Shown here: positions 4,371-58,525 of the stretch, piece by piece | Layout of the letters: every line of letters starts with the position of its first letter | Numbering within the stretch: the stretch's first letter is position 1 | Origin: Lantana camara | Taxonomy: Eukaryota > Streptophyta > Magnoliopsida > Lamiales > Verbenaceae | Assembly (NCBI GenBank): GCA_037501455.1 | Contig: CM074862.1 | Location: forward strand, 79,200,501-79,264,500 | Direction: 5' to 3' | Length of the DNA stretch: 64,000 nt | Translations under genes and position numbers: made by a program | Notes under the pieces: model-generated | Told to the model about the DNA's origin: nothing | Database searches by the model: none | Seen by the model: the letters and a program-made list of their open reading frames with translations, nothing else

Positions 4371-6188
4371 GTAAGATTTGTGACCCTTTCGTTACATGCG
4401 TTACTTTAATATCTCTTTCGTGCCCCGGATTTGTGTTATATGGCTAATTGGGGAAGATGATGAATAGTAACCGGGGTGTGAGTTTTGTATGATTTGGGCC
4501 GTTTTACGGGTTCTAATGTGGAAATATGTGACCTACGTATTGAACATGCTTTATTGTGTTATTTTCGTGTGTTTTGGTTGTGGTTTGGCTGCTGTTGCTT
4601 TGTTGTTTGCTTCCCCGTCGCCATTGTTGGAGCTTCTGCTGTTTTTCAGCTGTTCCAGGTGGGAACGGCCGTTCCTGTTTTGGCCTTGGGGCCGGAACGG
4701 CCATTCCCATCCGCGTATGGGAACGGCCGTTCCCATTTTGTTCTTTGGACCGGAACGGCCGTTCCGGGCAGCGCTGGTGGGAACGGCCGTTCCCGTTTTG
4801 CCTTGTTTCTGGGAACGGCCCTTCCCGTGGTCCAGTAGGTTGGTTTTGGGTTTTATGCTTTTAATTGATTTCTTTTGCCGCTTATTGATTTATATCTTAA
4901 TTGCAGTGTATGTTTCGTTATGAATTCGTATTATGTGCTATGTTTGGTGCATGAATTGTAATTTAATATTAAAGAATGAGTATTTTATGAGTGTATACGT
5001 GATCCATGACTTCATGCCAATCATAAGCATACGCCGTGCGTTTATTTGGTTCATTCACGTGTCTAAGTCCTGTTTTGTATTCAGTTTGTTCAGGTACACC
5101 CGGGGTGGTGTTTTGTTGGCCGTGTTGATTCCGGGGTGGATCGTTTGTTGTGTCTTTGGGCCTCTTCGGTGTCAGGTGAGGTTAGGATATAGTTACACCT
5201 TATTGCAATGTGCTCGGTTTTGATTGCATGTGATTAAATAAGCCTTATATGTATATAAATAAGTGTGAAATATGTATTTGTTGAATATGCCTTGAATTTG
5301 CAAGTATGTTGAGCAATGTACGAGCCTATGTATGCTTGGTTTGGAATGATTTGTTATGATTTGCCACGTGAAGCTATGCTTCTGACCGTATACTTCTCAT
5401 GAGCCATGTTTGGCAAGGACCGAGTTTGATTGAAACGGAAAGTGGTATGTATACGTATATATGTATAAGTTATGTCTGTCTGTTTCTGTTGTAGCGGGTT
5501 ATGATATGATATGTGTTTGTTGGGCCCCGGAGCTATGGGTAAGGAACCCTCGGGACGGCATAGGGTCGTCGAGGTTAAGCCTGTGCATAGTCTCCATCTG
5601 TCTGCAGAGGATCACCCCTGAACTCACCAGGAGGTTTGGTGAGGGAAGGAATCCTGAGGGTTTGAGTACTCGCAAGGCGCTCCCCTCGTTTGTCTGGATG
5701 GTTTGGGCGTATACACCCTTCCATCACCCGGAGTTGAGGATGATATGATATGATTTGATATGTATGTAAGTTTTATGTTTTGATTCTGATATGATATGTT
5801 ATGAGGAGATTGGGGAAGTCGGAGCTCGTACCCGCCGAGTTCTATATGATATGATATGTATGTTCTGTTAAGGTTTATGAAACAGGGATAGATTCTAATT
5901 TAAATAAAAGGGAGTTTTATAAGATAAGTTAAGTTTTGAATATGGTAAGAGCTAATAGGTTTTGCTAAGTTTGTTCGGTAAGTTAAATTGGTTTGTTTGA
6001 TTTGCTAAGTAAGCCCTTTGTATATATGTATATCACGGGAAATGATTTAGTGTGCAAAAACTATCCCCGCGTTCATGAACATTATGAGTTTGATATGTGC
6101 TTTGCTCTTATATATATAGTGTGAGTGCGTTAACCCCTCACTCAGTCGAGTTAAGACTGACCCCTCCCCTTTTACCTTTAGTTTGCAG
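4371..6188 (+). other. Predicted LTR intron of element A (1818 nt)
   Basis: CTAAG|GTAAGA is a near-consensus plant 5' splice site, and TTTGCAG|GT after a pyrimidine-rich stretch is a good 3' site. Equivalent donor and acceptor pairs occur in all seven Tekay-type LTRs in this window, with the acceptor always followed closely by a GCTAGGCGGG-like stretch. No transcript evidence is available. Confidence 0.55.
4661..4826 (+). repeat. Six-dyad array in element A LTR (GGGAACGGCCGTTCCC type)
   Basis: Six copies of a 16-bp self-complementary site, with centres at 4668.5, 4700.5, 4726.5, 4758.5, 4786.5 and 4818.5. Spacings are 32, 26, 32, 28 and 32. Two sites are perfect palindromes; the first differs in its last base, and others vary by a base or change outer bases in a paired way (CCGGAA with TTCCGG). 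The spacers inside pairs share TTTTG-CCTTG. Confidence 0.9.
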
Positions 6189-7529
6189 GTTTTGCTTGGA
6201 GTTCGTGCTAGGCGGGGTGTGTCTGTCTTTTGGAGTCTGTTCCGTGTCTTTGTCTAGTAGGTGGTCTTGCATTTGCATTTCTTTAATTTGGCTTATGTAT
6301 AAGATATGTTTGAATATGATATGTAGAATTTAATTATGTATTGATATGTATATATTCGGGATTAGGTATTTATACTAGTTGAACCCGTCAACTGTTTATG
6401 TATGTTTTGATTGTGGCATGGTTTATTTCGCTTCCGCATTTTTGTTGTCTGTTTAGTTCTGTTGTTTAGGGTCTAAGTTCCGTCTAGCTTAGGTGTGAGT
6501 CTGTCAGTCTCCCGTTCGCCACTGTTTGGTTCACGTACGGACTTCCCATTTCGTATGTGGATCGGGCTTTGGTGCGGGGGATGTGGTGACCCACCGTGCG
6601 GGTGCTACAAAACCTCCTGGCGGATATTTGGGTTGCTCTAACACGACGAAACTTATGCAAGATTTCATCGTCGGCCCGATACCTCCCCAGTTCGCTCAAT
6701 ACGTAAGCCCCTAGGCCCCACGATCAAGTACAGGAATCCACACCGGCTAGCCCAACGCTAGGAGAGCCGGGGGCAATCAGGATCTCGTAAAACAGGCTCA
6801 GGGTTAACACTGCACGATTTCTAAAGTATTTTCGGTACATAGCTGGTATAAAAGATATGGTTTGTTAATATGAAAACTGTTTTGCTTATTTAGAGCATGC
6901 AAGGTTATAGGTCGTTTATAAAAGAAAACCCTCACCTTCATGTGCAAGAAAGACTAAGGGAGAAACCACGAGTTACGAATATCTCCACTGAGGAGATCAC
7001 TATACAAGAAAGAAGACACGGTGTACTTGTGAGGCACTACTCAAGAATGAAACCAAGTAGGACGCACAACAATGTTCATGAAGAGGTGTATTATGTCATG
7101 GAATAATTCAATATGCAATAAACTATAAAAATGTCATGAATTGGTGTTATCGTGTTCATGTGCACAATTAATATCCCTATAAGTAGACAATGATACATAT
7201 TCAATTCATATAAAGCACTGAGTCAAACAATCAAATTAAAAAAATTAAGGGCCAAGGAGTGTCAAATAATATCATAATCATCAATTATTCAAGCATACAA
7301 TTCATATAAATCACATACGGGAGACAAGGAAGTGAAAGGAATGTCTCGAGTTTAGCAAAAGCTGACAGTTTTTGGAAACGCGTAAGCTATAGAAAAATGG
7401 GAATATCTCAAGTTCTAGAAGTTAGAATTAGGTTTTGTTTGTTGAGTATGAAACTAGACAAATAGACCTTTCCAATGATATATGGCTGGAATTGTGGTTC
7501 AAAGCGATGTGAAAATGACGTTTGAGAGG

Positions 7530-7650
7530 TAAACGCCCGTTTAAAACTTGGCCTGGAAACCTAAACGGGCATTTGGAAGCTCTCGGGTAAAAAAAGGGGG
7601 ATCTCACACGGGCGTTTGAAAAATGAAATGAGAAGCTAAACGGGCGTTTG
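7530..7650 (-). repeat. Four-dyad array in left LTR of element B (AAACGGGCGTTT type)
   Basis: Centres at 7536.5, 7568.5, 7611.5 and 7643.5, spacings 32, 43 and 32, the same as in the right LTR. The core CGGGCG or CGCCCG is flanked by AAA/TTT arms, some extended by CC/GG. Confidence 0.85.
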
Positions 7651-8723
7651 GGATGCCACTAGAAGAAAAATAAATAGGGGAAAAACAGGGGGTTCACGGG
7701 AATAGCTTGAAAACCACTCTCCACTCAATCCAACAACACCACGAGCTCCTAAACCAACGTAAAGCATGCAAGAACAGTTAATATAACTTCAAAGCAAGTT
7801 TAAACATACATTAGCATGCATTAAATCCACAAAATTCCACCCAACAAGCCCTTAGAATGAAAATGATCAACCATGCTCTAACCCTCATGAATCTCAAGTT
7901 ATATATGTATCATCAAGCTCATAATCAACACATAAACTTCATCTTAAGTCATGGAAATCATTCAAGCCAAAAACCCTAACACAAACTCAAGAATTCTTCA
8001 AATACACATATATACAACCTTACCTTGGATGGAAGAAAAGAAAGAGATGAAGAAGAAGAGGTCTTGGCTTGAATTCTTGAAGAAAAAGAACTTGAATCCT
8101 TATCTTGAGCTTTCTTGTTTGGATCGAAATAGAAGGAGAAAGGGATGGGAGGTTTGTGTCTTGTTTCTTGTGACACCCTGGTTTTCGGCAAGTTAGGTAT
8201 GACGTCACGAGAGAGTTTAATTCTCTATTTTTGTGATTTATGTGACGTCGCATGCTCTACGTGTCAACGTGTAATTTTATTTTAATTATGTGCAACTTAG
8301 AATTTATTTAAACTGTACTTGGACTCAATTGTCCAATATTTGCAAGTTAAGGACCTAATTATAATTAGGGTGTTTTGGGCCATTCGTGGCTACCTTGAGC
8401 TCGAGAATTCGGATACGAATTCCAACCTTACCATTGGATTCATTTCGGCGATTTAGATACGATGGGATTAACCATTTATTTTCTACAGCCACTTGATCGC
8501 CATACCGTTTTAAATCCGATCCGAGTCGACCGGATATCGTTTGACTCCGCCCGTTACAACCAACCCATTAACCGGCCCTAAAAAGTTCTATTCTCTTCCC
8601 TTTTCTCCCCATGTCACACGAGCCACCAAGGAAGAGAGAGAGAATGAGAAATTCCACCTCTTTTGGCCATCAAGCCCTTAAGCTCGGGTTTGCAAGATCC
8701 AACCGTCCGATCAACGAACCAAG

Positions 8724-10523
8724 GTAAGATTTATACTCTACTCGTTACGTGCTTTGATTTAATACCTCTCTCGTGCATTGAATACGTGTTATGTGGCTAC
8801 TTGGGAAAGATAATGAATAGAGCCAGGTTGGGAGATTTATGTGTTCGAGCTCGTTTCGCGAGCTCTTATGTACAAATATGTGATCTACATGTTATATATG
8901 CTACGTGGTTTGAATTTTATATGATCCGGAGAGTGTGGGTTCGTGTAGGTGTGTTGGTTGTTGCTTTTCCGCCATAGCTGCTGCTTCTTCTCTTTTTCGA
9001 GCAGGACAGGCCGAAAGGGCCGTTTCGAATTTAGCTTGTTTCTCCGAACGGCCGTTTACGTGTTCCGCACGCGCCAGCAGCGAGGGCCGAAACGATCGTG
9101 TGCAGTTTTGGCCTGTAGCCGAAACGACCGTTCTGGATGGCTAGTCTGGGGACAGAAGGTCCCCAAACGACCGTTTCCCTTTTTGGCCTTGGATCCAAAT
9201 AGCCGTTTGGAGGGTGGCTGACCTCGGGCCGATTTTCGGATCGCCCTTTTCACTCGAGAACATTCCGTTCTCGTCCGTGCTTGCTTGTATGTGTTATGCA
9301 TGATCTTTTTATGCCTTTAATTAATGTTTTATACTATTCCATGATTTATATTTCGCTATAATGCATAATTCGTTATGAATTCGTATAATTGCTTACACGT
9401 GGGATATTAATTGTGCACATGAACACTATGACGACATAACATATCATTTTATGTTCTCGCACACATGTTATATCATTCCATATCATGCCATAAACACCTC
9501 ATATCACTGCCTTACGTCCTATTTGGTCTCATATTGGGTCATTTCTCACGAGTACACAATGTTCCTTGTTCTTGTACAACTCATCTCCAAGACGGAGACT
9601 TCCGGATAGAATAGGCACCCGTATTGCTCGTGTATCTTGTCTCATGGTATTCCAGGTAAGGGTGTTTTCGTTCTAGTTACGTATCAAACCCTACAACCTT
9701 TATTTGATAAGTTTTGGCCAAAAAGCTAACGTATATATATATATATATTTATATATTGATTTCAAAGTAAAGTCATCGAGTAAATTCTTATTGAGTAAAC
9801 CTTTTCTCAAGGATTTGAAATGTATTGTTATTAATATTCTCACGACTTGAACGTTTTGGCGTGATCACGCATGATCATGTTCATGTACTATTGGGCCCGA
9901 GGAAATATGTGAGTGGAAACCGGTACGGTATGGGCCGTCGGTCAATCCATTCATATAAAGTACCCTTTGAGAATCTCTCAAGCGACCGAGAAGTACGGAA
10001 GGTGAGTTATTCTTGAGCCGATGGTGTTATCCCATCGAAGGAGTGGGTAGGAGTCATGATCCCCCGTCTCGATACGGACTACGGACTGGTTCGGGTCTAC
10101 AGGTCCGACCAGGGAAGGGAGAAGGTTGGAACTATTATTACGATTATGATTACGATTACGATTATGATTATGGTTATTTCATGAATGTGTAATTCGCTTG
10201 TATTAATATGTATTGCATGATCACATATTCAAAAGTATTAATCACGTTATCGGTACATGGTCGGAGTTTGGTTGGAGAATCATACATGCACACTCGCCGA
10301 GTTACAATGATTACTCATGATTACGAACGTAATGAATTCAATATGAATTAGTCGTAAAGTCCGAGCAATGCTTAACTAATCCCTTGCCCTTCGCGGGAAC
10401 TAACTTCAAATAAAATTTTGTTCGGGATTTATGACTTGCATGTACATGTTTTATATATGTATAGCTCCTGCTCACTCAGTCTTCTAGAGATTGATCCCTC
10501 TTTCCACTTTTCAATTCTTGCAG
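8724..10523 (+). other. Predicted LTR intron of S1 (1800 nt)
   Basis: CCAAG|GTAAGA at the left and TTCTTGCAG|GTGG at the right, followed by GCTAGGTGGG. Donor context (GATCAACGA-C-AAGGTAAGATTT) is shared with element A at 4359-4378. Confidence 0.5.
9011..9210 (+). repeat. Six-dyad array in S1 (CCGAAACGRCCGTTTCGG type)
   Basis: Centres at 9019.5, 9051.5, 9095.5, 9127.5, 9170.5 and 9202.5; spacings 32, 44, 32, 43 and 32. Individual copies are degenerate in the arms, but the three within-pair distances are identical. TTTTGGCCTKG occurs in two of the within-pair spacers. Confidence 0.85.
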
Positions 10524-11107
10524 GTGGTGCTAGGTGGGAGTCGAGTCATAGCTTTCTTGTTCGAGTCACTTATACACTCGAGTCATATTTCACCATGTTA
10601 TGATTTATTTGTATTACTTTACGTAATTAGGCCTGTGTCCCAATTATGATTAATGGATATTGATTCGGGACATGTTGCTACATTTCTTGTATGTAAGAAA
10701 TGAAGGAGGAAGAGACATATGTGTATATACATATATATCGTGAAAACAAGAAAGAAAAGGAGGGAAATTGCCATCAAGTCTTTTAGAATTTAAGTGATTC
10801 GATTAGGCCTACAAGTTTGGTAATTGAGCAATTGGATCCAATTTCAAAGTTCAATTGTATCCAAGGATTTCATATAAGTTCAAATAGGTACACAATCAAA
10901 ATAAAATATTCAATTAACAAATAAACATATTAAAATCGAGTTTAAGGAACATAATTAATTAAGTCGTATGTCACATAATAGCAATTAATTCGCGAAATTA
11001 TTAAATTAAACATTCAATTAGCAATTAAAACACAATTACATCATATAGCACTCGACCTAAACTCACTTGTGACGTCATACCTGACTTATCGGGAAACGGG
11101 TGTCACA

Positions 11108-11930
11108 ACCTCTCCCCCTTAAGAGGACCTGGTCCCCAGGTCCACTGCCTCGAGTTCTGGACTCTTAAGAAGACTCTCCCGTGTTTATCCCACGCGGGTT
11201 AGCAACTCCCCATCAAGAATTAGTTCGAAAAATGTCTTCAAGTAACAAGGGGTCTTCAAGTGTTGTTAAGTCACAACCCTTAACTCACCGAAACCTAAAC
11301 ACTATAAATTCTAAGCTACCGCCACTGGCAAGCTAAACAACTAGTTAGCAACAATGAGAGAGAACCCTATCTCTCTGACAACAACGAGAGAACCCCGTCT
11401 CTGAAACAAACAACGAGAGAACCCCGTCCCTTGAACAACAGCGAGAGAACATCGTCTCTCAAACACAAGGAAAGAGAATCTCGAAAACTCTCAAAATAAT
11501 AATTAAATCAACAATCACACAACAACTATACAAGGAGCAGGTAGGAAATATCAAATACATCAATTATCTTCCATATAAAAGCAGTAAATACAATAAGCAA
11601 TCAAAGTACATAGCATCATGAAATTGTTCAAATTTAAGTTGCATGTATACATATGCCATGAATGCTTGGTGTATTGTTCACCATAGCAATGAGATTGGAA
11701 GTTGATAACTTTCTGGCACGATTGCATGGTCTGATCCTTAGCTGGCTCGGTTCTCGACTCATCTTTCATTCTTGAGTGTGCACTGGACCTTAATCCAATC
11801 AGCCCATTCTTGACCACGAATTATATTCGACCTTCTCGGGTGCTCGGCCTAATCTTTAGTAGCTCGAATTTCTAGTCTCCAATCCTAATAGCGTCCCTGA
11901 ATTATCATGGAAAAACGACAGATGTGCCTG
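11108..11930 (-). other. Internal region of element B next to its 3' LTR, with polypurine tract
   Basis: On the minus strand CTCTTAAGGGGGAGAGG at 11108-11126 is the polypurine tract. It is preceded by ACCTGGGGACCAGG, as in element A. No coding sequence is recognised. The region contains the four-copy repeat at 11356-11460 and is then interrupted by solo LTR S2. Confidence 0.75.
11356..11460 (-). repeat. Four tandem copies of a ~29-bp unit, GAGAGAACCCCGTCTCT type
   Basis: GAGAGAACC-C-TCTCT recurs at about 11356, 11386, 11415 and 11443. Each copy has short complementary arms (AGAGA and TCTCT) around an ACCCCG centre, with CAACAACGA-like linkers. Confidence 0.8.
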
Positions 11931-12578: not shown

Positions 12579-14401
12579 GTATGGATGGAGAATTTGATTA
12601 AATCTCTTGAGATATATGAAGTAGGGTTTGGTGTTTATGAAGTGATTCCTTGGTTATAAGTGATTAGAAATTTGTTTAGGAACATTAAACTTCATAGCTT
12701 GCATGCATTCTTACATTATTTGAGGTTAAATGTCATGGTATGTATATGGGTTTGTTGGATGATTTCTTGATGATCTTAGTATGTTACCTTGGATTAAATG
12801 TTGCTTAAATGTTGTAATTAAGTTATATGCATGTTATGTGTTTGTTTGGGGTGTTTTTGGTTGAGTTTTCTTGGGAGTTTGCTACCCTTTCTTTTCCCCA
12901 CGAACTAGCCCCTGTTTTCTGCCCTTTTTCTCGCCCAGAAGGACTACCCGGGCGGGTAGTTTTTGTGCCTAAAAACTACCCGGGCGGGTAGTGTGTTCCA
13001 GTAGGTTTCTGCACTCTTTTTCCCCGGCAGGGTAGATTTTGCCTTGTATTTTCCCCGGCCGGGTACTCCCTCATACGAACTCGGAATGACCTGATTTTTG
13101 AACCGTTGGAAACCTATTGAAGTCTAGAAAAATCTCCAACTGGAATCATCTCAATATCCTTTTTAATTTGTGAGATATAATCAATTCTTTTTGGTGTCGC
13201 TGCTTTTTCGGAAATCTGCATTCCTCCAATTTTAAACCTCCGCCATTTTCTCCTCGTTTTGAACCACGATTCGAGCCACCTACCATTTTAAAGGTCTGTT
13301 TGTCTAATTTCATACCCAATAAAAAATACTCCATTTCAATTCCTAGAACTCAAGATATTCCCAATTTCCCACAGCCTGCGCGTTTCTAGAAATTGTCAAC
13401 TTTTGCCAAATTTCACCCAAACACCTCTAATTGCATTCCTTTCAACCCCTTGGCTCCCGTATATGATTTAAATGAAGTTTTAAGTAGTGTATGAACATTC
13501 TCATGAATTATAATTATCATCATTCCATGTCATGAACATGCCGTTCGTCCATTATTTGGTTCATTTGTCTAGAGTCTTATGTACACTCGTGTTTCTTGCA
13601 CAGAGTTTGGTCCGGTTGGGGAGCAGGGTCCGTAGGCTTCTCATTTTCTTCACTCTTTTGGTTAAGGTGAGGTTTTCTTTATGTATTTAAAGCCCATAAT
13701 ATCTCTATGTGACTATTTCGGCCGAAACTTATATTATACCTATAGTTTTCCCTAAATGTCAAAGTGATTTATAAAAGAACCCCGTTTCTTCTAATAAAAA
13801 CCTACCTACCATATTGTTTTGGCGAGATATTGCACTGTATTGTTTGGGCCCTAGGGGAATCGTGGGATTGGCGACCAGAACGACATCGGGCCGTCGGAGA
13901 GAACCTCTACACGTAGTACCCATTGGGAATACCTTCGCGCGACCTAGGAGACGGGAAGGCGAGGTATTCCTGAGCCGGTGGTTCCCATACCATCGAAGGA
14001 GCGGGTAGGAGTCATGAGCCCCCGTCTCACATTATACTTAGGTGGCTTGGGCCTTGCAAACCTGACCACCGATTCATGGAAGAAGGAGGGATATTAAGTT
14101 ATCAATTGGCTGATTATTTGAATACTGTATTGCATGATCACTTTACACTTAAACTGAACACTGTACACTGTCGGAGTTTGGATGGAGTTTTACCCACTCG
14201 TCGGGTCACGAATGCCAAATGATAATTGTAATTAAATGATATTTGTAATCTCGGGCATTGGCTCTTTTATTCAACTATCCACTTGAACCTTTGCTAAAAC
14301 CATGCTCGGAATTATAGGTTGCATGTTTTGTGAGCTATACATATAAACCCCTCACTTAGTCTTCTTAGACTAACCCCTCCTCACTTTCAGTTTTTTTGCA
14401 G
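12579..14401 (+). other. Predicted LTR intron of S2 (1823 nt)
   Basis: TTCAAG|GTATGG to a long T-run plus GCAG|GTCTCGCTAGGCGGGG. Same layout as the other Tekay-type LTRs in the window. Confidence 0.5.
12943..13067 (+). repeat. Four-dyad array in S2 (ACTACCCGGGCGGGTAGT type)
   Basis: Centres at 12951.5, 12983.5, 13027.5 and 13058.5; spacings 32, 44 and 31. The first two copies are identical 18-bp sites with 8-bp complementary arms; the last two are CCCCGGCAGGGTAG and CCCCGGCCGGGTA variants. Confidence 0.88.
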
Positions 14402-15327: not shown

Positions 15328-15420
15328 GCACATGTTGGAAAACACGAAAGAATTGAGAAGCGGAAGTTTAAAATTTTCCAAAAGTTTAATCGTTGTCTTG
15401 TAATTTTCGTATCGTATCAT

Positions 15421-15800
15421 AGGGTGTTTAGAAACTTACAATGATAGAAGCTTTCTAGTGATGCCGTTACAGCCTAACGGACACACTTCAAGCGAAGTCC
15501 CTCGAACAGTCTTCGAATTAGATTCCAAATTAGAAGCCCTCCAAAGCGTATCCACACCAGACCTAAAACACGATCAAGAGAGTAAGAATGCTAGTTCTAT
15601 GGCTTGTGTTAGGGTGTTTAGAAACTTACAATGATAGAAGCTTTCTAGTGATGCTGTTACAGCCTAATGGACACCCTTCAAGCGAAATCCCTCGAACGAT
15701 CTTCGAATTAGACTCCAAATTAGAAGCCCTCCAAAGCGTATCCACACCAGACATAGAACATGATCAAGCGAGTGAGAATGCTAGTTCTATGGCTTGTGTT
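15421..15800. repeat. 190-bp tandem duplication in left LTR of C
   Basis: AGGGTGTTTAGAAACTTAC begins at 15421 and again at 15611, and the copies stay aligned to the CTAGTTCTATGGCTTGTG stretch. The right LTR has one copy (from about 40206). So the duplication happened after insertion, or in the copied template. Confidence 0.9.
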
Positions 15801-18160
15801 AGGCTAGGATTTGCTTTGAAAACTTTTCTTTTGGATTTTCTCAAAAACTTAAACACTTCTCGAGTGTTGGTCTAAAAAAAAAAAGAAACACCACCCCTAG
15901 TATAAATACTATGTTGGTTCAAACCCTAGGAGACTTCTCCAAGTCGCTTGGAGTTTATTTTCTTGCTCACTAATTAACTAATTTAATTGTTAATTTAATT
16001 GGAAGAACAAGTTCCCAACTTGTTCTCCAAGTCTTGTAAGAATAATCTTCTCTCTCCTACAATAGAAAGTTTGACTTTTCAACTTTCCTAAAGTTAAAAG
16101 TCAAGATTCAATAAATAATTTAATTCCAATTATTTATTGGGTTAAGTTTATTTGAGAATAGTCTTAACAATTAATTCAATAATTAATTAAAAGACTAAAA
16201 TTAATTAATTACAATTTAATTAATTAATTCTAGAAAAGAATTCACGTGTGGAATAAACCACATGCACGAGGCCACGCGTGAAGCCACGTTGCAGTCACGT
16301 TTTTATACCTCGTTTCGATCAACTATTTTGATCCTTCGTTAATCATATTAACTTCCTACCATAACCCTCATATTCTGGCATTTGTGTGTGATCCTTTAGG
16401 TTCATTATTCGATTAGCAGTGACAGTGATTAATTAATTCCCTAATTCATGAATCACTTCACAGATCACACTATAGTAATCTAGTAATGGGTGTGTAACCC
16501 CTAGCCGAATAACGAAATGAATCGAAGAACTTTTCAGTCAATGACAATCAGTGAAATACGATCCTCCTACAACTCCATCTCTCAATAAAGAAATAAGGCA
16601 TAGGAATATTCTCAGAGCCTAAATATTCTTGATCTTTAAAGTTAAGTTCGTTTCATATCCATTTCGATCTCAATCCTAGAAAACCCCATTTTCTAGATGT
16701 CTTGATCTTTTATCCACCTTGGCCCAGGGTTTAATGTTTAATGGACTACGAACAACTCAATCAGTAAGAGATCATTCTTGTTCTTAACCAGTTTAAGTCC
16801 TTTATCGATTCTACTAATTCTACATATACCACTTGTGTAATCCCAATATAGACCGTGGTTCAGGTGTCTATATGGCGACACCCTTTTGAACCTATATCAA
16901 AGATTACAGAGCTAGCTCATATGAGACATTACAGAATCTCAAGTCTAAGGATTAATGAATCACATCATTGACCTGTGAGATATTTCCTAATCTGGAAGTT
17001 TCTGGAAACTTCCTTTCCCATTTAGGAATGTTCTCAAGCGGGACATCTCAGTGATGAAGTTCTTGTAACAATCACCCTTATGTATTATGAACGCATCAAC
17101 GTTGTAACTGCCCAACCTTTTCGTATTCTAGTATAACGTATGTGTTTATTAAATTGCGCGAATTAATTGTTTATAAGTGATTTATATATTTAATTTTATA
17201 TATTAAATGTTAAATTATTTCTATTTAAGTTTATTAACATTAAAATTTAATTTAATTTGTACCCTTTGATTAATTGTTAAATATGTGATTAATTGAGATA
17301 TATGAAATATTTGAATTGGAATTTATACGAATACTTGAACCACTCGCGCATTAATAACTTGTGTGCTCCTTAATTACGCGTTTAAATTATTTAATTACCT
17401 AATTAATCGTTTATTATAATTACAATTTTTATTTTTAATTAATCATATTAATTATATTTAGTTCGTTATATTTTAATCAAAAGTTAAAGTGGAGTACGTT
17501 TAATTTATAATTGAAAATAGTTGAATTTTAAAGGAATTCTTGAATGTTATGCACTTATATGTTTTAATCGCGTGCCGTTCTTACTTGAATTGATTTCGGA
17601 ATTTGGTGCGATTTTAGCATGTTGTAGATTTATATGTTGTGAACTTGTGTACGCGCTCGTTTCATGTTTTCGATTTTGTTTGGTGTGTTAACGTATTTTA
17701 TTTTGGGAACGAGACCAAGTCGGGGGCTAAAGAGCATTCGGCACACCTCTGGTTCCGGACGGCGTATCTTAAGTTAGGGAATTCGGATTCGAATTCCAGA
17801 AGTGGTGTCGGACTCGTAATGAAGAATGGAAGCTAGAGAATTTAGCCTCATATTTTTCTAATCTCGTTTGAACACCCGTATTTTGCCCAAAAATCGACCC
17901 TTGTGATAGATTCGCCACCTTTTACGGTTTTGGCCATAACTAATTCATCTCTTAAGCTTTTAACCTCAAACTTGGACCCACTTAACCCTAATTAATCCAT
18001 CTACCACCCCATTATCCCCTCATTTCGTTCAGCAAGAGAGAGAGAGAGAGATCATCTGGGAACCGAAGCAACAAGAAGAAAGAAAAAGGAAAAGGGCTGC
18101 CACTATTCATTTCTCATGTTTTGAACTCGATTCACCTCCAATTCGCACCAAATTTGAAAG

Positions 18161-21412: not shown

Positions 21413-21584
21413 TGTCAAAGCCACTCAGGTGCTAATCTAAGTCCCTTCTTCTGAAGATGTCCTTCAAAAGCCTGTTGACTAAGGGCTTTAGTAAGTGGAT
21501 CTGTCATGTTCTCTGCCGATGTGACCCTTTCAATTTGCACATCTCCTCTCTTGACGATATCACGAATTAGGTGATACTTCCTCT
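21413..21584 (-). pseudogene. C-terminal end of copia polyprotein (RNase H tail) of C
   Basis: Minus-strand reading gives KYHLIRDIVKRGDVQIERV, then a TDPLTKAL stretch and a short tail, the standard end of copia RNase H and polyprotein. It is cut off from the rest of RNase H (34248-34512) by the insertion of element D; reading from 34248 across the gap keeps the frame. The polypurine tract AAGTGGGAGAT follows at 21399-21412, next to the 3' LTR. Confidence 0.85.
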
Positions 21585-30003: not shown

Positions 30004-30021
30004 GCAAATAGCTGGGCTAAT

Positions 30022-40099: not shown

Positions 40100-40115
40100 G
40101 GTGGCTCTGATACCA
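40100..40115 (-). promoter_or_regulatory. Primer binding site of element C (initiator tRNA-Met)
   Basis: Minus-strand TGGTATCAGAGCCACC, two bases inside the LTR border at 40118. Standard for Ty1/copia. Confidence 0.92.
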
Positions 40116-40117
40116 CT

Positions 40118-44866: not shown

Positions 44867-44910
<44 letters not shown>

Positions 44911-44914: not shown

Positions 44915-46500
44915 GGCAATCAAGCAGGCGTAACTCCACTATACGTTATTTGTTTTCAAGAACGAGTTACAGGATTCAAGAATCAATCGATACGTATGGT
45001 AGAATCATGTTTATTCATGCAATCAGGTAAGAAGGATAAACAATGTATGTTTCGATATCCGTACGCCCTTTGTTGATGCCCATTTTACCTTAACGATCCA
45101 TGAGTTCCGGTTGCTGAACAGGGACTGGGGTATGCCAGAGGTTACGGATATCTATAAATTACATTTTAGGGGACCCGACGAGCATGGGTATTTATTCCAT
45201 CCTGGTCTCCACTTTCCACTTATTAACATGGCAAGAACAGGACACGTATTCACTCAAGCAAGCACGAATCAGGAATTCATTATAATTATCAATATCAAGA
45301 ATACATGTACAAGATTAACCTCCTTCTCCGGTGATGGTTCGGGTAGCTAACCCTCGCCATCTAGGTCACTGTGGTCTGTGGGTTCACGACTTCCCAAACC
45401 GGAATCCCATCTTCCACCAAACCTCCTGGCGGATATCCGGGTTGCTGTAACACGATGAGACTTATGCAAGAGGTCACAGTTGCCCCGATACCTCCCCGGT
45501 TCGCTCAATACACAAGCCCCTGGGTCCCACGATCAAGTACAAGAATCCACACCGGCTAGCCCAGCACTAGGAGAGTCGGGGTCAATCAGGATCTCACAAA
45601 ACAGACTCAGGGTTAACACTACATCATTTATAAAACATTTTCGGTACATAGCCGGTATAAAAGATATGGTTTGTTAATATGAAAATCGTATGGCTTATTT
45701 AGAGCATGCAAGGTTATAGGTCGTTTATAAAAGAAAACCCTCACCTCCATGTGCAAGAAAGACCAAGGGAGAAACCACGAGTCACGAATATCTCCACCGA
45801 GGAGATCACTGTATAAGAAAGAAGACACGATGAACTTGTGAGACACTACTCAAGAATGAAAGCAAGTAGGACGCACGACAATGTTCGTGAAGTGGTGTAT
45901 TATGTCATGGAATAATTCAATATACAATAAACTATAAAAATGTCATGAATTGGTGTGATCGTGTTCATGTGCACAATTAATGTCCCCATAAATAGACAAT
46001 GATACAGATTCAATTCATATAAAGCACGGAGTCAAACAATCAAATTAAAGAAATTAAGGACCAAGGAGTGTCAAATAATAACATAATCATCAATTATTCA
46101 AGTATACAATTCATATAAATAACATACGGGAGTCAAGGAAATGAAAGGAATGTCTCGAGTTTAGCAAAAGCTGACAATTTTTTAAATGCGTAAGTTGTAG
46201 AAAAATGGGAATATCTCGAGTTCTAGAAGTTAGAATTAGGTTTTGTTTGTTGATTATGAAACTAGATAAATAGAAATTTCCAATGATACATGGCTCGAAT
46301 TGTGGTTCAAAGCGATGTGAAAATGGCGTAGGCTCAAAGTTGGACAAATGTAGATTTTTGGCGAAGAGGCGACACAAAATTTAAACGGTTATATCTCGGT
46401 CCTCATATATTAATTCAAGGTGATTCTAATTGGAGAATACTCTAAACTTAAATTAGTTTTTGTAGTTAAAAATTCAGGTCAATCAGAGCACGTTTGAGAG

Positions 46501-46622
46501 GTAAACGCCCGTTTGAAAGTTGGCCTGGAAACCCAAACGGGCATTTGGAAGCTCTCGGGTCAAAATAGGGGGATCTCACACGGGCGTTTGGAAAATGAAT
46601 TGGGGAGCCAAACGGGCATTTA
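46501..46622 (-). repeat. Four-dyad array in right LTR of B
   Basis: Centres at 46508.5, 46540.5, 46583.5 and 46615.5; spacings 32, 43 and 32. Copies such as CCAAACGGGCATTTGG show arms longer than the AAACGGGCGTTT core. Confidence 0.88.
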
Positions 46623-47558
46623 GAATGCCACTGGATGAAAAATAAATAGGGGAAAACAGGGGGTTCACAGGAATGGCTTGAAAGCCACTCTCCACTCAAT
46701 CCAACAATACCAAGAGCTCCCAAATCAATGTAAAGCATGCAAGAACAGTTAATATAACTTCAAAGCAAGTTTAATCATACATTAGCATGCATTAAATCCA
46801 CAAAATTACACCCAACAAGCCCTTAGAATGAAACTGATCAACCATGCTCTAACCCTCATGAATCTCAAGTTATATATGCATCATCAAGCTCATAATCAAC
46901 ACATAAACTTCATCTCAAGTCATGGAAATCATTCAAGCCAAAAACCTTAACGCAAACTCAAGAATTCTTCAAATACACATATATACAACCTTACCTTGGA
47001 TGGAAGAAAAGAAGGGGATGAAGAAGAAGAGGTCTTGACTTGAATTCTTGACGAAAAAGAACTTGAATCCTTGTCTTGAGCTTCCTTGTTTGGATCAAAA
47101 TGGAAGGAGTGAGGGATGAGAGGTATGTGTCTTGTTTCTTGTGTAGGAAATGAAGGAGGAAGAGATGTGTGTGTATATACATACATATCGTGAAAACAAT
47201 AATGAAAAGGAGCGAAATTGCCATCAAGTCCTTTGAGAATTTAAGTGATTCGATTAAGCCTCCAAGTTTTGGTAATTGAGTAATTGGATCCGATTTCAAA
47301 GTTCGATTGAATCCAAGGATTTCATATAAGTTCAAAAAGGTACATAATCAAAATAAAACATTCAATTAACAAATAAACATATTAAAATCTAGTTCAAGCA
47401 ACATAATCAATTAAGTCGTATATCACATAATAGCAATTAATTCATGAAATTATTAAATTAAACATTCAATTAGCAATTAAAACACAATTAGATCATATAA
47501 CACTCGGCCTAAACTCACTCGTGATGTCATACCTAACTTATCGGGAAATGGGGTGTCA

Positions 47559-48437
47559 GTTCTTAAAACCCAAATTCGAATTGGGTCTTGAAAGACTAGG
47601 CACTCAGCCGCATGGTTTTCAACTTCCCGCCACTAGCGAGATTCATCCTGAGGCGTGGGTTTCAGCGTGGTTTGTCCAGATCCGGCGAGTGCCCTTTTGC
47701 TGTAACTTTTTCCGGATTAAGTTGAAGATTTCCCTGTTCTGAAATCGCCGCCAACCGTTCGTCTTCTCCGGTGGGCTTGGTTCAGATCTGAAATCGCTGC
47801 ACTTCGGCCTGCGCTTCGCTACGTCGATGACTTTTCTGGCCAAGAATTTGTTCATTTGGGGATTTCATGTCTTTAGGTTTTAATCCCCGATGACGTGTTT
47901 TGATTCTGGTAAGGGGCTACTGAGTTTTCCTTCCTTATTTTCTTGTTGTAATGATTACCACTTTTACTGGTAAGCAAATGATTTGTTAGACTGAAATTTC
48001 TTTGAAATTTTTGTAGATTCTTGGACATGGGATATTAGTGGTGTCCCTCCGACGTCTAATTTGAATCCCCAGAGAGCCATGAAGTAGAAGAGGTTTGTTT
48101 AATTTTTGGAGATCATTCTCTCGACATTTTGGGGTTTTTGCTATGTGAGCTGAGGTTTGGAGTTCAGCTGAAAATAGATCGCTTGATTCCATTGAGCTAA
48201 GGGTGTTGTTGTTTGTCACGTGGGCTGCCAAGGACCTGCTTGAATTTGATTAGGGACCTGCTCGGATTTGTTTGAGGGAATAAAGGAGAGTTGTTCGGAT
48301 TTTCTTATCGCATTGAGGTAATTCCCGAGCTCCCTCCTTAAAGTTATTTTCCTCGAATTGTTTGGATTGGATTTTGTATGTCGAGATGTTTTCCATACCG
48401 CAATCCTATTATTTGGGTTAGAATAATGGAGTCGACA
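47559..48437 (+). other. Non-coding stretch upstream of the Tat antisense ORF
   Basis: 880 bp without a recognised domain. GC-richer, UTR-like sequence near 47600-47850 and possible donor sites (for example GGTAAGGGG near 47909) suggest a spliced leader for the antisense ORF, but this is not demonstrated. Confidence 0.5.
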
Positions 48438-52165: not shown

Positions 52166-52170
52166 ATATG

Positions 52171-52320
52171 TTTTTGGCAAAAAATACACCCAAATCGAGT
52201 TTTCAACTTCAAAATTCGAGAACTCTACCCTCCCATAATCGAGTACCCGATTCATATAATCGAGAACTCGATCCTCGCTTAGTCGAGTACTTGATTTATA
52301 TAATCGAGTACTCGATTCGT
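52171..52320. repeat. Phased dyads at left end of MULE region (TCGAGTACTCGA type)
   Basis: TTTTTGGCAAAAA (centre 52177) followed by six TCGAG-NN-CTCGA-like sites with centres at 52200.5, 52221.5, 52244.5, 52265.5, 52288.5 and 52309.5. Spacings are 23.5, 21, 23, 21, 23 and 21. It lies between Tat RNase H and the transposase gene, where the element's terminal region should be. Confidence 0.85.
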
Positions 52321-52374
52321 ATTTATGAAGTATTTTTTTTTTAATTTTCTACTGCATGCATGGTTAATTAAATC

Positions 52375-54753
52375 TTGTTTCCGATTGTGTGTAGGAATGG
52401 CGACTGGGTTTTGTCGAAATTTGTTGTTGGAGTTGAATATGGATTGTGGGAAGAAGAATCCACGTGTTGGAATTGGGTTGCGGACAACAAGCAAATGACT
52501 GCTCTTCTTATGAACAACCAGACTACATTTCAAATGTTGATAAGCGATATTATCGAATAATCAGGATTTACTTGCTCCCATGATGATGTACATGTGAAAT
52601 ATTTCTTACAAGTGCACCTCCAACCTATTATCCAACTGAAATAAAGTCTGATTGTGACCTTCAAGTTTACTTCTCCGACATCTCTCCTCTGGGTTGGAGG
52701 CCCATTTTAAAGGTTTCTATTGATAGGAGGGAGAGTCAAGCAGAATCCGACCATGTTGATACAACCGGGTTTACTGAGGATGAAGATCAATCTGAACAAG
52801 ATTATGAAGACTTCAATCTCCCTGATAACAACCTTGAAGACTTCAATCTCCTTGGTAACAACCTTGTTGTTAACTATACAAGCGACGATGTAAACAAAGA
52901 AATGGTAAATTGTTGTAATGAAGATCTTCAACATCCCTCTGAAAATGTAATCGACGAAGAAGTGCCCAATCAATCTATTAATGAGAAAGAAGAAGCCATC
53001 ATATGTTATGATAATCCAGAGGTCAGGATTGAAAGTCATACGTGGGATGATGGTTCAGATTTTAATGATGATGAAGAGTTTATAAACAAAGAAGATGCCA
53101 GTATGAAGCTCAACCGAGTTGCATGTAAGGGAAGCTTCCAATTTCAAACAATAAAATCAACACAGTCCCTTATTGTTCTTGGATGTTATTCCAAGGATTG
53201 CAAGTGGTGGGTTCGGTGTGTTAAATATCCTAATTCTGACAAATTTATCCTCCGAAAGTATAATCGGATTCTCAGTTTTGGGTTGGAATAGGTATCTACT
53301 CATCATCAACAGGCAACCGCAAAAATTATTGGGGAATCAGTGAAACATTTGTTTATAGACGGGAAAGGTCCCACACCACGCGAAATTCAAAAGCACATCC
53401 AAGCTCAATTGGGGTTCAAGGTTATTTACTAGAAGTGTTGGATGGGCAGAGTACATGCAAGGAATATTGTCAGAGGATCACCTGAGCATGGATATGTAAT
53501 TATAGATGCATATCGTTATATAATCACAAGTGGGAATGAAGGAAGCATCACTAAATTGGTTCTTGACAACGAAGACAGGTTTCTTCATACGGGGATTTAC
53601 ATTCATGCATAAGGTGTTAGCCATTGATGGTTGCTTCTTGACCGGTAAATATGTTGGTACTATCCTATTGGCTACTGCACAAGATAGCGAGAACCATACG
53701 TATCCTATTGCATGGGCAGTGGTCGATTTAGAAAATAATGCATCATGGGAATGGTTTTTTAACAATTTAAAAAGGATAGCAGTTGATAGTGAAGATCTCT
53801 GCATAATATCCGATAGACATGTTTCCATTAAAAATGTTGTTGCCAAGGTTTATCCTATAGTACATCATGGATTTTGTACGAAGCACTTATCGGAGAACTT
53901 GAAACAACGTTTCAGAAAAAGTGCGATCATTGAGCCATTTTTTAGGGCAGTCAAAGCATACACCGTGGAAGATTTCATGGAGCACTACAGGCAGATCGAA
54001 CGTATTCACAAACGTGCAGTGGAATACTTGAAGGATGATGTTGGTTTCGAGTTATGGAGAGGGTTCATTCTAAAGGAAACAGGTATGATGTTCTGACTAG
54101 CAACATTGCCGAGTCTGTTAATTCAAGGATTCGATTTGAAAGAGAGTATCCTATCCCTACTATGTTTGAGTATATCATACGAATTTTGGCTGATTAGTTC
54201 AACACTCGGCGAACGGACATGATCAACTGCAATACAATTCTGGTGCCATCAAAAGAGAAAGTTCTGTGGAGTAATTTGGAGAAATCTAAAGGTTGCATTG
54301 CACAACACTTCACTGCTCATGAATTTTCTGTTCGCGGACTTAGAGAAGAGGTTTTGGTTGACTTGAAATATGAAGTGCACATGTGGAGCCTTCCAAGTGG
54401 ATAAGATCCCCTACCCCCATGGATTATCTGCCTTAAGGGAGCAAAACATAGAAGGGTTTGGACAAAGAATATATTCCTTATGCTCCAAATTTTACACTGT
54501 TGAGTATTACATACATGCCTATTCCGAGATAATATTCCCTACACCTCCAGAGCTACAATGGGAGCTGCCTGAAGATATAGGTATTAAACTAGTAAAGCCA
54601 CCACCACTGAAGGTGCTTGTTGGAAGGAAAAGGATGACGCGATTTCGGGCACCTTCTGAGGGAAGAAAAAGATACAATACTTGTTCCAAGTGTGGACAAA
54701 AGGGGCACAAAAAGACTACATGTGAACAGGGTGTCGAAGAATCGAATAGCTAA
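52375..54753 (+). pseudogene. Mutator-like (MULE) transposase, frameshifted
   Basis: Pieces in order. 52375-52560 is an N-terminal piece. An acidic linker is open from about 52600 to 53291 and begins PPTYYPTEIKSDCDLQVYFS; its end is the MuDR-type DNA-binding part (LNRVACKGSFQFQTIKST, then CYSKDCKWWVRC). 53292-53530 has two stops (with GPTPREIQKHIQAQLG and RIVRGSPEHGY-like sequence). 53530-54096 is the MULE catalytic domain (LAIDGCFLTGKYVGTILLAT, IISDRHVSIKNVV, HHGFCTKHLSENLKQRF). 54097-54404 continues (LTSNIAESVNSRIRFEREYP, one stop). After a one-base shift, 54370-54753 holds the SWIM zinc finger (CTCGAFQVDKIPYPHG) and a CCHC knuckle (CSKCGQKGHKKTTC). The SWIM CxH reads YxH, so a zinc ligand is lost. 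It would have cut and pasted MULE ends in the nucleus; this copy cannot be translated whole. Confidence 0.9.
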
Positions 54754-56171
54754 TAGAGAATTCGATTGGTTTTTTGTTTTGTATTTTGCATAATTTTATT
54801 TAAAGAAATGGAGTCTGAGTCGAGTACTTGATCAACTTGTCGATCTTATACATATTTTAGACTGACTGATGTGCTAAATTCAGAAAAAAGAAGAAAAAAA
54901 AAACACAAATAACATAATAGACCATTTTTCATTATGTGGGGAACATGATTTTGGCTAAAATACACCCAAATCGAGTTTTTGACTTCACAATTCGAGAACT
55001 CGAATCTTTCATAGTCGAGTTCTCGATTGATTATTAACATTTTACAAAATCATATTATGACTCGACATTGTAGATCCTTTGTATTTTCCAGTTTCATTTT
55101 GCTTCAGGCTCCATTTAGAACCTTTGTGTCTTCTTCCTAATTTTAGGAATATATATAATTTCGAATAACTTCTCCGGAACATTTTACAAAATAAGATAAT
55201 CACTAAATTCGGAAAAAGAACAAATTCAACATATTGGAACATTCTTCAATATGTGTTGTAACGCCCTGGTTTCTCATTTATACTAATATGTCGTATTTGT
55301 TATAAATTACGCAATTAAATCATTTAACTATGTGATTAATTGTTTATAAGTGTTTTAAATATTTAATTTTAATATAAATTGTTATTATTTTATTTTATTT
55401 ATAATGTTGCATTTCGTTAATTTAGTGATTTATTTTGTTAATTAAGTTATTAATGTTAATTAACCTATATCCTTAATTATTTGAATTAATTTCAAATGTC
55501 CGTTGACTTTGTTTTAATTTAAAATAGAATTTAAATTTTAGTTTTAATTTATAATGTATGAATTTATTAAGATTATGCTCGTGAATATTTATTCGTGCTT
55601 CGTTCTTATATGAATTGATATCGAAATGTCATAGAAATTTAGTATGTTGTAGATTTATGTGTTATGAACCTGTCTATATACTCGGTTTATATTTTCGAAC
55701 TCGTTTGACGTGGTAACGAATTTAATTTGAATTGTGGAACCAAATCGGGGGCTAACGAGCAATTAGCGCACCCTTTGTTCCGTATGTGATATCTTGAGCT
55801 CAGGAACTTGGATTCGAGTTCCTTCAACTTCATTGAACTCGTATCGAAGATTCGGGTTTAATGAACTTAACCTTATAATTTTCCGAAATCGTTTGGACCT
55901 TCGAAATCCAACCGAAAAACGAAACGGCACCAAAACTACCATATTTTACTAAAATGGCCCTAACTTGTTCAAACCTTAACCAAATTAACTATGGTTGGAG
56001 TCCTTGTAACCCTATTTCAGCCCACTATCATCCCATACTCATCCCCAACCGAACAAATCCTCACAAGCAAGAAAATTCAGCCAAAGTTTCTGCTTTCCAG
56101 TTTCCCGTCACTTTGCAATCCTTTGAGATTTTGGAGCTCAAATCTCTTCCAACTTTCATCCAATCAACAAG

Positions 56172-58525
56172 GTGAGTTAGGGTTATGTTATACATGCATC
56201 TCTGGTCATTTTGATCCATTCATCCCTAATTCTAAGTCAGTTTTCATGGAGTTTTGATGATTTGAGGGAATAGTTAGGTTTAAGAGTGTTTTGATGAATT
56301 CTTGAAATCCTTTGGCTTATAACTTGTTTCGGTGCTATATATATGATTCTTTTCCATTTATGACTGAGTATGCTTGTATTAGTTGGTGGTTAAGAGTTGG
56401 GTGAGTTACCATTAATGAACTTGTTATGAAATGCATGAAACTGGAACTGATTCTTCCTCTCTCTCGATGTACTGCTGCTCCTTTTTGCATTGTTTGTTGC
56501 TCATATATAGCTGATCTTGTTGCATAAAGAGTGGATGGATTGTTGCCCTTTTTTGCTTCATTTTGGCCCTGTTTTGCTACGTTTTGTTACTGTCATGCTG
56601 CTGCTCTTTTCCATGCTTTGTTGGTGTACTTTTCCATTCGTTTTGTGGGAGTTTTGATGCCTTTTTGCTGCTACATTTGATGCCTTGATTGCTGCTATCT
56701 TCTGCTGAGTATTCATGAAGGTAAAACAGAGGCTTAAGCCTTGATCTGCTGCTGCCTCACGTCTGTAATGTAACTCCCCGGCCGGGGAGATTTTGTGCAT
56801 GGAAAAAGCCCGGTCGGGTAGCTGTGTTGCAGAAGCTGCTGCTTCCTTCTTCCATTTATGCAATTGTTTGAGCTATTTTATGCGTAATCCTTGTTTACTA
56901 ATGCATGTTTGCATGCTTGAAACTTGGTAGGTACGTGTGTTTACATATTTGCATGCATTATGTAATTTAATTGTTATTGTTTATGCATGCCTACTGTGTA
57001 AACGTATATATATAATATATTAGTGATGCATGCAGTGCTTGTGCATTACATGTTAGCATGCATGAAATGTTTTGAATTGTTTTGTTATGCATGCAACATG
57101 TACGTGCATAATTACATATAATAGTATGTGCATGCATGGTGGTGGTTGTAAATGGTTGCATGCATGGTATTAATTATGCGTGTGTAATATATATATAACT
57201 TATTTGCATGCATATTTAATTTATTACCTTATTGCATGCATGCGTTTGTGTTTAAATGTGAGTATTAATGTGTTATATTAGTAATATATGCATGCATGCG
57301 CATGTAAATATATATATATTAAGTATTTATGTATATTATATATATGTTTATGATATATTAAATATTGATTGATTTAATTAAATTATGGAAATTAAATTGT
57401 TATCTATTTCATGTTCCTTTTTAATTTCCAATTTTAAATTGAATGTAATTATTTGTCTACTCTATAATTGCAAACGTGTTATAGTATGTGATATGACCAT
57501 TATTTGAATTCATGGATTGAACTTAATGAATATGAACGCTTCCTTGAACGAATGAATGGCTCATTTATATGATTTAAATGCGTTAATCATGCACATGAAT
57601 GTGTTCATTACATAATATTATCTTTGATGCATTCATAGCATGATCATTTCATGTCATGCGTCATATATGATTCATTTGGAGTCTTGAGTCTCACGAGCAC
57701 GTTACGTTGTCTTTTGCACAGTTCTCTCCAGGGTGGAGATATCGGGTTCATAGGACACTTTCGAGTCTCCTTTTCTTCTTGGTATTATTCGGTAAGAGGC
57801 GTTCAGGTGGGTTTCTCTACTATTTTTGATAAATGACCCTATATACTCCCAACGTTTAAAGATTTCGGCTAAAACTATTATATGTATATAGAGTCGTTTT
57901 CAAGGGTCATTGATTTTAAAAGTAAAGCCCTTCTTTTATGAACCTACCAAATGTTTTGGCGAGAAAGAATGAATGAATGCACAGAATGGGGCACAGGGAC
58001 TTGGTGTGAGTGGTGACCCGAGGAGGCAAGGGCTGACGGTGATCCCTCACACGAGTTCCACCAATGAACGGTGTAACAAGACCTCATTAGGAGTTAACGA
58101 GGAATGGACGCTAAGTGCCATCTGGGGAGTCATGTTCCCCTTTTGGTCAATGAATGGATGGTTCGGGCCGATCACCCGGCCATCACCCGGAGGAAGAAGG
58201 TGTTAATGTTCATGAATGTGCACAAAAGAATGTTATGCATGAATGAAAGAAAGAAAGAAAGAATGTTTAATCAACTACACGAGGTGTTGGTTGGAGATAA
58301 TGCACGCCCACTTGCCGGGCCACAAACGACCTAATGAAAAATGAACGTTATAATCCCTTTTGATGACTTCTTTATTTTACACAATTAGGAAATGCTCTAA
58401 AACCTCATTTGGGATTATAACTTGCATGTAAGTGTTAAATATTGTTGTATATGCTATTTATACCTCATTTTATACCCACCAGTCTCGTATAGACTGAACC
58501 CGGATTATTTTCAGTGTTCTTGCAG
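56172..58525 (+). other. Predicted LTR intron of S5 (2354 nt)
   Basis: CAACAAG|GTGAGT, a strong plant donor, to TGTTCTTGCAG|GTTTGG, followed by GTGCTAGGCGGGAAG. Confidence 0.55.
56774..56820 (+). repeat. Dyad pair in S5 (CTCCCCGGCCGGGGAG type)
   Basis: A perfect 16-bp palindrome centred at 56781.5 and a CCCGGTCGGG copy centred at 56813.5, again 32 bp apart. TTTTGTGCATGG lies between them. This is the smallest version of the pattern, one pair only. Confidence 0.85.

Follow-up and report, generated by a model that had tools for sequence, protein, structure and literature searches.

Paired palindromic dyads at a near-constant distance in the long terminal repeats of a Lantana camara locus: a tentative case for a dimeric DNA-binding partner

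Introduction

In regulatory DNA a binding site is usually kept while its spacing drifts, and a locus at which the reverse is found raises the question of what might hold the spacing constant. The locus considered here is a 64,000-nt stretch of Lantana camara contig CM074862.1 (the window, to which all statistics on the arrays refer). It consists of nested plant mobile elements, and the long terminal repeats (LTRs) of several retrotransposon families carry arrays of short palindromic dyads, with a CGNNCG core between complementary arms, that stand in pairs; the distance within pairs is kept, and the site itself changes in concert across several families. An earlier inspection of the letters (the sequence-only reading) had listed arrays of seven elements, A, B and S1 to S5, each of which was located at its given place. 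The arrays, together with those of an eighth family, C, are as follows (dyad centres; distances and gaps in bp).

4661-4826, forward strand: array of A; three pairs, 4668/4700, 4726/4758 and 4786/4818, all at 32; dyad type GGGAACG-NN-CGTTCCC.
7530-7650, reverse strand: array of B, copy B2; 7536/7568 and 7611/7643; 32 and 32, gap 43.
9011-9210, forward strand: array of S1; 9019/9051, 9095/9127 and 9170/9202; 32, 32 and 32, gaps 44 and 43; dyad type CGAAACG-NN-CGTTTCG.
12943-13067, forward strand: array of S2; 12951/12983 and 13027/13058; 32 and 31, gap 44; dyad type CTACCCG-NN-CGGGTAG.
18645-18779, forward strand: weak array of S3; GTCGCG-NN-CGCGAC-like dyads at 18652 and 18771 with poor partners at 18685 (2 of 8 arm pairs Watson-Crick) and 18737 (4 of 8); 33 and 34.
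23804-24007, reverse strand: array of S4; 23811/23843, 23886/23918 and 23967/23999; all at 32, gaps 43 and 49; dyad type that of A.
25314-25614, reverse strand: array of C, copy C1; 25323/25357, 25403/25437 and 25487/25521; 34 each.
25571/25605, reverse strand: fourth pair of C1, decayed and placed by eye.
33808-34108, reverse strand: array of C, copy C2; clear pairs 33817/33851, 33897/33931 and 33981/34015; 34 each; dyad type GTAACG-NN-CGTTAC, dyads TAACGNNCGTTA.
34065/34099, reverse strand: fourth pair of C2, placed by eye at 34 and reported by no scan; dyad 34065 is poor (3 of 8 arm pairs Watson-Crick).
46501-46622, reverse strand: array of B, copy B1; 46508/46540 and 46583/46615; 32 and 32, gap 43; dyad type AAACG-NN-CGTTT.
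56774-56820, forward strand: array of S5; a single pair, 56781/56813, at 32; dyad type CTCCCCG-NN-CGGGGAG, related to that of S2.

Results and discussion

The dyads are concentrated in arrays and paired at a constant distance

With B taken once, the seven listed elements hold 16 pairs, and the distances reported for them are confirmed: 13 lie at exactly 32 bp, one at 31, and the two of S3 at 33 and 34, although the S3 pairs are weak and for that reason are not relied on. When a strict dyad is required to have a full CGNNCG core and five or more arm pairs out of seven, the window contains 33, with 28 inside the ten arrays (1.86 kb in total) and 5 elsewhere; 30 shuffles of the whole window in 50-bp blocks gave a mean of 11.3 and a maximum of 22. 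A scan without the CG requirement returned 57 pairs at its loosest threshold, the commonest distance being 32 (12 pairs, namely 10 of the 13 above and two from copy B2), with 5 pairs at 34 from both C copies; the other frequent distances were 21 and 23, from a Mutator-like element, and those between neighbouring pairs. Sixty block shuffles yielded 2.2 pairs on average and never more than 2 at any one distance, these null shuffles preserving composition in 50-bp blocks but not dinucleotides. Perfect cores with exact arms recover only part of the dyads and a mismatch-tolerant scan nearly all of those in the sequence-only reading; dyad 9202 of S1 was recovered only by the CG-free scan, and 18685 of S3 was taken from the earlier description. 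The possibility that the arrays are mere CpG islands was rejected, as CpG observed/expected is 0.78-1.49 within them and 0.57-1.16 elsewhere in those LTRs, a clear excess inside the array being confined to C, S3, S4 and B.

The contrast between the distance within pairs and the gaps between them is illustrated by the successive centre distances, which read 32, 26, 32, 28, 32 in A; 32, 44, 32, 43, 32 in S1; 32, 44, 31 in S2; 32, 43, 32, 49, 32 in S4; 32, 43, 32 in B; 32 in S5; 34, 46, 34, 50, 34, 50, 34 in C (the final 50 and 34 resting on dyad 34065); and 33, 52, 34 in S3. With S3 and the weak C pair omitted, the standard deviation is 0.8 for the 17 pair distances and 7.7 for the 10 gaps (Levene p=0.007 on pooled values). 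Within families, the sum of squares amounts to 0.5 for pair distances (n=16) and to 28.5 for gaps (n=10); the families are partly related, and pairs are not independent counts. Retention of the weak C pair gives sums of 0.5 (n=17) and 31.2 (n=11), with p=0.005. The distance is constant despite unrelated spacers, at 34 in all three clear pairs of C and at 32 in both pairs of B, and no alignment gap falls inside the arrays of B1/B2 (124 columns) or C2/C1 (299 columns), compared with 28 gap columns among 1,041 in the flanks of these copies (27 of the 28 in C). The claim that the distance is kept much tighter than spacer sequence or inter-pair gap is upheld. The gaps had, however, been taken as free, and they are not: in S1, S2, S4 and B, five of six are 43 or 44 (the sixth is 49), and those of A are 26 and 28. 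A spacing of three helical turns also fails as a general rule, since the 34 bp of C correspond to about 3.2 turns.

Arm pairing was tallied over 40 dyads from the eight families (copies B2 and C1 excluded, the weak S3 partners and 34065 included); positions k1-8 (n=320) comprise 236 Watson-Crick pairs, 28 G.U, 19 A.C and 37 others. In B (46508 and 7536) and in C (33851 and 25357) one dyad per array has the sense centre GG, most others having CC, and it is the same dyad that is flipped in both copies of its family.

Family C provides independent support for the layout

The lineages in question can be judged from the elements that carry the arrays, whose LTR limits were set by self-comparison of the window.

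1-966: tail of the other LTR of A.
1223-2194, forward strand: gag frame of A (Retrotrans_gag and Ty3_capsid by Pfam; CCHC-like motif spotted by eye).
3824-6609, forward strand: 3' LTR of A; array at LTR 838-1003.
6607-8172 and 10683-11105, reverse strand: LTR of B2.
About 8170-10684, forward strand: LTR of S1, inside the B copy; array at LTR 842-1041.
Start estimated near 11930, forward strand: LTR of S2; array at about LTR 1014-1138, from this estimated start.
About 17101-21024, forward strand: LTR of S3; array at LTR 1545-1679.
21583-22315 and 24967-25775, reverse strand: LTR of C1, split by S4.
About 22313-24966, reverse strand: LTR of S4, inserted in the C LTR; array at LTR 960-1163.
27304-32400, reverse strand: internal region of C, with gag (31723-32400), reverse transcriptase (29113-30021), and RNase H and integrase (27875-29263).
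About 32738-34242, reverse strand: LTR of C2.
About 45416-47562, reverse strand: LTR of B1; array at LTR 941-1062.
About 55256-58966, forward strand: LTR of S5; array at LTR 1519-1565.

Family C, which is present in two copies, is missing from the sequence-only list and was found by the CG-free scan, has this paired layout too, with a distance of 34 bp, and is the best independent support for it. Judged by its sequence, C is of a lineage other than that of A: the two gag products are very distant (24% identity over 104 amino acids), the C primer site TGGCGCCGTTGCC is unlike that of A (TGGTATCAGAGC, directly after position 966), and no chromodomain was found by Pfam in the C frame that follows the integrase (27304-27963). 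From this primer site and the absence of a chromodomain match, C may be Athila-like. The primer site of A fits tRNA-Met; gag is the sole domain found in A, the internal frame 2985-3446 having no Pfam match, so that the Tekay label of the A group, which would call for a chromodomain integrase and a Tekay-type reverse transcriptase, is unproven. S1, S3, S4 and S5 comprise LTRs only and resemble solo LTRs. The C array occupies positions 135-435 of a 1505-nt LTR, and in C2 TATA-like motifs are found within it, at LTR positions 161 and 357.

A layout inherited, with dyad types changing as sets

The seven arrays of the sequence-only reading cannot be regarded as independent. They lie at corresponding LTR positions, those of S3 and S5 being in longer LTRs, and, of the 14 pairs that A, S1, S2, S4, S5 and B contain, 10 have TTTTG close to the first dyad in sense (A 3/3, S1 2/3, S2 2/2, S4 2/3, S5 1/1, B 0/2). 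Among the 13 spacers of 32-bp pairs, between-family identity is 0.396, compared with 0.314 after shuffling (none of 2000 shuffles as high). The corresponding positions and the common TTTTG spacer indicate that members of the Tekay-like group, A, S1, S2, S4 and S5 at the least, inherited their layout. As a true signal, a constant spacer motif was rejected, TTTTG being absent from both pairs of B and every pair of C.

Despite this common layout, the dyads do not track the LTR bodies that carry them. The LTRs of A and S1 are 77% identical over 740 columns, and those of S3 and S5 78% over 1,328 columns, yet in both cases the dyads differ; B and S2, with layouts of 32-43-32 and 32-44-31, have a common flank (70% over 408 columns) that begins 10-12 bp away from the centre of the last dyad, and a dyad arm identity of 0.30. 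The arms of A and S4, in turn, are 0.82 identical, and outside the array these LTRs align only at their 3' ends (104 columns), while S2 and S5 have the paired unit in common (78% over 63 columns) and one more short match; the arms of A and S2 are 0.07 identical. It follows that the layout was retained while whole sets of dyad types were exchanged or replaced. The earlier statement that arms differ from element to element therefore needs qualification: several types do exist, but A and S4 share one and those of S2 and S5 are related, which leaves about five or six.

A possible binding platform for protein dimers

A fixed spacing with changing palindrome letters points to a partner that measures distance, and the reading that we favor, with a probability of roughly 0.45, is that the arrays are a platform on the DNA at which a dimeric protein, one of changing sequence specificity, acts in pairs. 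A homodimer would bind each dyad as two inverted half-sites (arm and CG) around two free bases, and two such dimers, 32 bp apart (34 in C) and facing roughly the same side of the helix, would act as one unit. An array contains between one and four of these units and is situated close to the promoter of the LTR or within a putative first intron. Half-site specificity would differ by family, the protein being coded by the element or its autonomous partner or, alternatively, different members of one host protein family being recruited by different element families, and its job might be to activate or protect LTR transcription. The central two bases are non-complementary in 23 of the 40 dyads, and asymmetric centers occur in both orientations, which is consistent with a palindromic DNA site. 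Furthermore, the outer arms lack within-dyad covariation in the families other than C (lowest family p 0.15, k5-8), and the six families outside B and C (A, S1, S2, S3, S4 and S5) have 17 G.U and 16 A.C pairs, with no sense preference.

Several observations weigh against this proposal. A binding protein is not known, and none was found. In C, the outer arms do covary within dyads (k5-10: 33 of 48 Watson-Crick versus 23.0 shuffled, 1 of 4000 as high; without 34065, 31 of 42 versus 21.1, none of 4000 as high), for which a homodimer has no need. A distance of 34 bp is a non-integer number of turns, and the gaps of A, 26 and 28, are near half turns. The three units of A look like recent tandem copies, with a period of 58-60, and the A pairs are consequently not separate evidence; an inherited layout, moreover, could partly account for the common 32. 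Between copies within a family the dyads are no better conserved than their surroundings, which speaks against selection of any kind (substitutions in dyads 6/64 and 8/128, in spacers 6/60 and 10/171, in flanks 30/530 and 22/483), although decay after insertion may conceal constraint in such a comparison. That a single paired-dyad code operates in two Ty3 lineages, with dimeric trans-acting proteins, element-coded or drawn from a host family, that would read pairs by a fixed ruler while the letters switch, in the manner of an arms race or so as to prevent cross-talk, is a broader claim that we regard as improbable.

Alternative explanations

Ranked behind DNA binding is a role in RNA, which is doubtful but is kept, mainly because of C. 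Each dyad would form a hairpin in the sense RNA, with an arm stem and a four-base GNNC loop, and two hairpins at a fixed distance would serve as a packaging or dimerization signal, or the two dyads would form one long stem. The covariation of the C arms is what such pairing predicts, and C also has 6 G.U pairs against 1 A.C (4 against 1 without 34065) and folds better in sense than in antisense (-100.1 versus -90.3 kcal/mol in C2, -94.0 versus -87.2 in C1), as do S3 (-52.1 versus -40.4) and S5 (-23.8 versus -19.1). The two orientations are, however, about equal in A (-108.4/-107.2), S1 (-81.1/-79.8), S2 (-55.8/-55.9) and S4 (-98.9/-97.7), and in B1 antisense is slightly better (-42.7 versus -41.0). 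The excess of G.U over A.C reaches one-sided p=0.029 in B and C together (11 versus 3; 9 versus 3, p=0.073, without the weak dyad), a grouping chosen after seeing the data, but p=0.12 overall (28 versus 19), and the even counts outside B and C, like the lack of covariation outside C, speak against hairpins. In a hairpin, position k1 would be part of the loop, yet 33 of the 40 dyads have a Watson-Crick pair there. A long stem between the two dyads of a pair was rejected by a narrow margin, as pairing within dyads (264/320 at k1-8, G.U allowed) only slightly exceeds that across the pair (251/320). AAG/GTA donor-like motifs lie at LTR 546-592 in A (CTAAG/GTAAG, at 546), S1, S4 and B1, upstream of the arrays at 838-1163, so that only unspliced RNA would retain the array, and in BARE spliced and packaged RNA pools are described as kept apart (PMC3735527). 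No such motif was seen at the corresponding place in S2 or S3, S5 has one at 915, and most of the C array lies at or before the likely promoter; a spacing exact to the base would also be unusual for linked hairpins. It is possible that groups of arrays differ in having a DNA or an RNA role.

The proposed protein platform must also be set against a history without present function, rated third and rather unlikely, in which an ancestral paired unit was tandem-duplicated and inherited, 32 persisting by descent, while quasi-palindrome correction and local gene conversion would maintain the symmetry of the dyads and their likeness within an array. The corresponding LTR positions, the TTTTG spacer, the recent-looking copies of A and the unexceptional conservation of dyads between copies all agree with this, and template-switch correction of quasi-palindromes, a known process, could account for the extended symmetry of C. 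Yet the gaps drift and the pair distance does not; C is of another lineage; neither in B nor in C are the spacers of an array related to one another, which means that recent duplication did not create those pairs; and conversion would carry the spacers along, whereas these differ within most arrays. Least probable, and placed last, is that the dyads are sites for one ordinary host transcription factor, for example one that recognizes the MYB-type half-site AACGG. The dyads of A, B, C, S1 and S4 fit AACGNNCGTT, with AACGG present in one half or both of most of them, and the C array surrounds TATA-like motifs, but the half-sites of S2, S5 and S3 (CTACCCG, CTCCCCG and GTCGCG) are quite different within the same kind of layout, and one factor could hardly read them all.

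Other features of the window

A second dyad system, TCGAG-NN-CTCGA, extends over 52244-62030 at spacings of 21, 23 and 44 bp (about two turns), around two Mutator-type transposase frames and in downstream repeats (about 340 and 416 bp), which are interrupted by the insertion of S5.

52587-53291: Mutator-type frame with a weak MuDR DNA-binding match, below the Pfam cut-off.
53524-54096: Mutator-type frame with a MULE domain.

At 11355-11460, outside the arrays, a GAGAGAACCCCGTCTCT-like inverted motif recurs at intervals of about 28-30 bp. Of the two copies of a repeated element, the second (40114-42143) has a cluster of CACGTG (G-box) palindromes at 40842-40935, only one of which was found in the first (15329-17100 with 21024-21398). 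At the Rfam gathering threshold the window gave one match, outside the arrays: the plant snoRNA R71 (RF00097, 57.3 bits) at 32060-32165, on the strand opposite the C gag frame; this antisense position suggests that the match, or the RF00097 family itself, may be retrotransposon-derived.

Comparison with known systems

No description of paired palindromes at a fixed distance in LTRs was found in the open-access literature, to which the search extended, subscription literature lying outside it; the available portions of PMC6911290, on palindromes at insertion sites, and PMC11963269 contain none. Six dyad strings searched as letters matched, within the text covered, only a paper on a human virus. 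Relatives of A gag and of C reverse transcriptase were not found in viral_contigs, and a protein search with A gag gave 469 candidates, none at E<=1e-10. The dyad-pair pattern occurs in at least 120 stretches of viral_contigs, where, among the matches listed, those with at least 3 dyads in 300 bp look like other kinds of array. Many of the viral contigs listed (L001-L120) contain dense AACGNNCGTT arrays with steps of about 11 bp (L001:9975-10030, L037:6112-6155), and among the listed matches 70 of 146 dyad pairs 25-40 bp apart are at exactly 33, the query having preselected 30-36.

Tandem enhancer boxes in the LTRs of Tnt1, Tto1 and ONSEN are conserved host-factor sites; the arrays described here resemble them as repeated short cis motifs in an LTR but differ in that the motif changes while the geometry is kept. 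Retroviral packaging and dimerization hairpins are structures of the sense RNA that are bound by the Gag nucleocapsid, and gammaretroviruses have double-hairpin signals of this kind. Such retroviral signals, and those of BARE as far as the available text of PMC3735527 describes them, are paralleled here by paired palindromes that could form stem-loops and that, in A, S1, S4 and B1, follow a donor-like site, but the present arrays lack a clear sense preference outside C, and the C array is in the promoter region.

In behavior, the nearest parallel would appear to be VANC/VANDAL, which is another kind of element. VANC proteins are anti-silencing factors that remove methylation. In Arabidopsis, VANDAL elements have dense arrays of short motifs in their non-coding parts, the motif differs between related families, its units evolve together with rapid turnover, and the targets of VANC6 and VANC21 hold different motifs (PMC5735166, PMC10398659, from the portions available). 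The concentration of 28 of 33 strict dyads in ten arrays (1.86 kb) is similar, as are the family-specific dyad types, though A and S4, and S2 and S5, share theirs. As to a tandem spread of motifs, the signs are mixed: the units of A look duplicated, and the spacers within B and C are unrelated. VANDALs are, however, Mutator-type DNA transposons, whereas the present arrays are in LTRs (of elements with gag, reverse transcriptase, RNase H and integrase in C, and gag in A); their motif YAGTATTAY is repeated in a single orientation and, in the available text, is neither described as palindromic nor assigned a fixed pair distance (PMC5735166).

An element-coded partner might be sought among proteins of the ORF0 type. 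The rice elements Retrosat2, RIRE3 and RIRE8 have long LTRs starting TGTCACACCC, to which the LTR starts of A (TGTGACGCCC) and S1 (TGTGACACCC) are close, and rice ORF0, an accessory protein with no assigned role, has a higher rate of evolution than ORF1 (Ka 0.257 versus 0.078) and, according to the accessible part of the report, was not found outside grasses (PMC3485330). Such a protein is a possible kind of partner by analogy, and nothing ties ORF0 itself to dyads. If a protein does read the pairs, the families at this locus already supply the matched targets needed to identify it, and would allow a test of how retrotransposons avoid silencing or ensure that their own promoters are still recognized; a paired-dyad code, if true, would amount to a VANC-like self-recognition system in retrotransposons.

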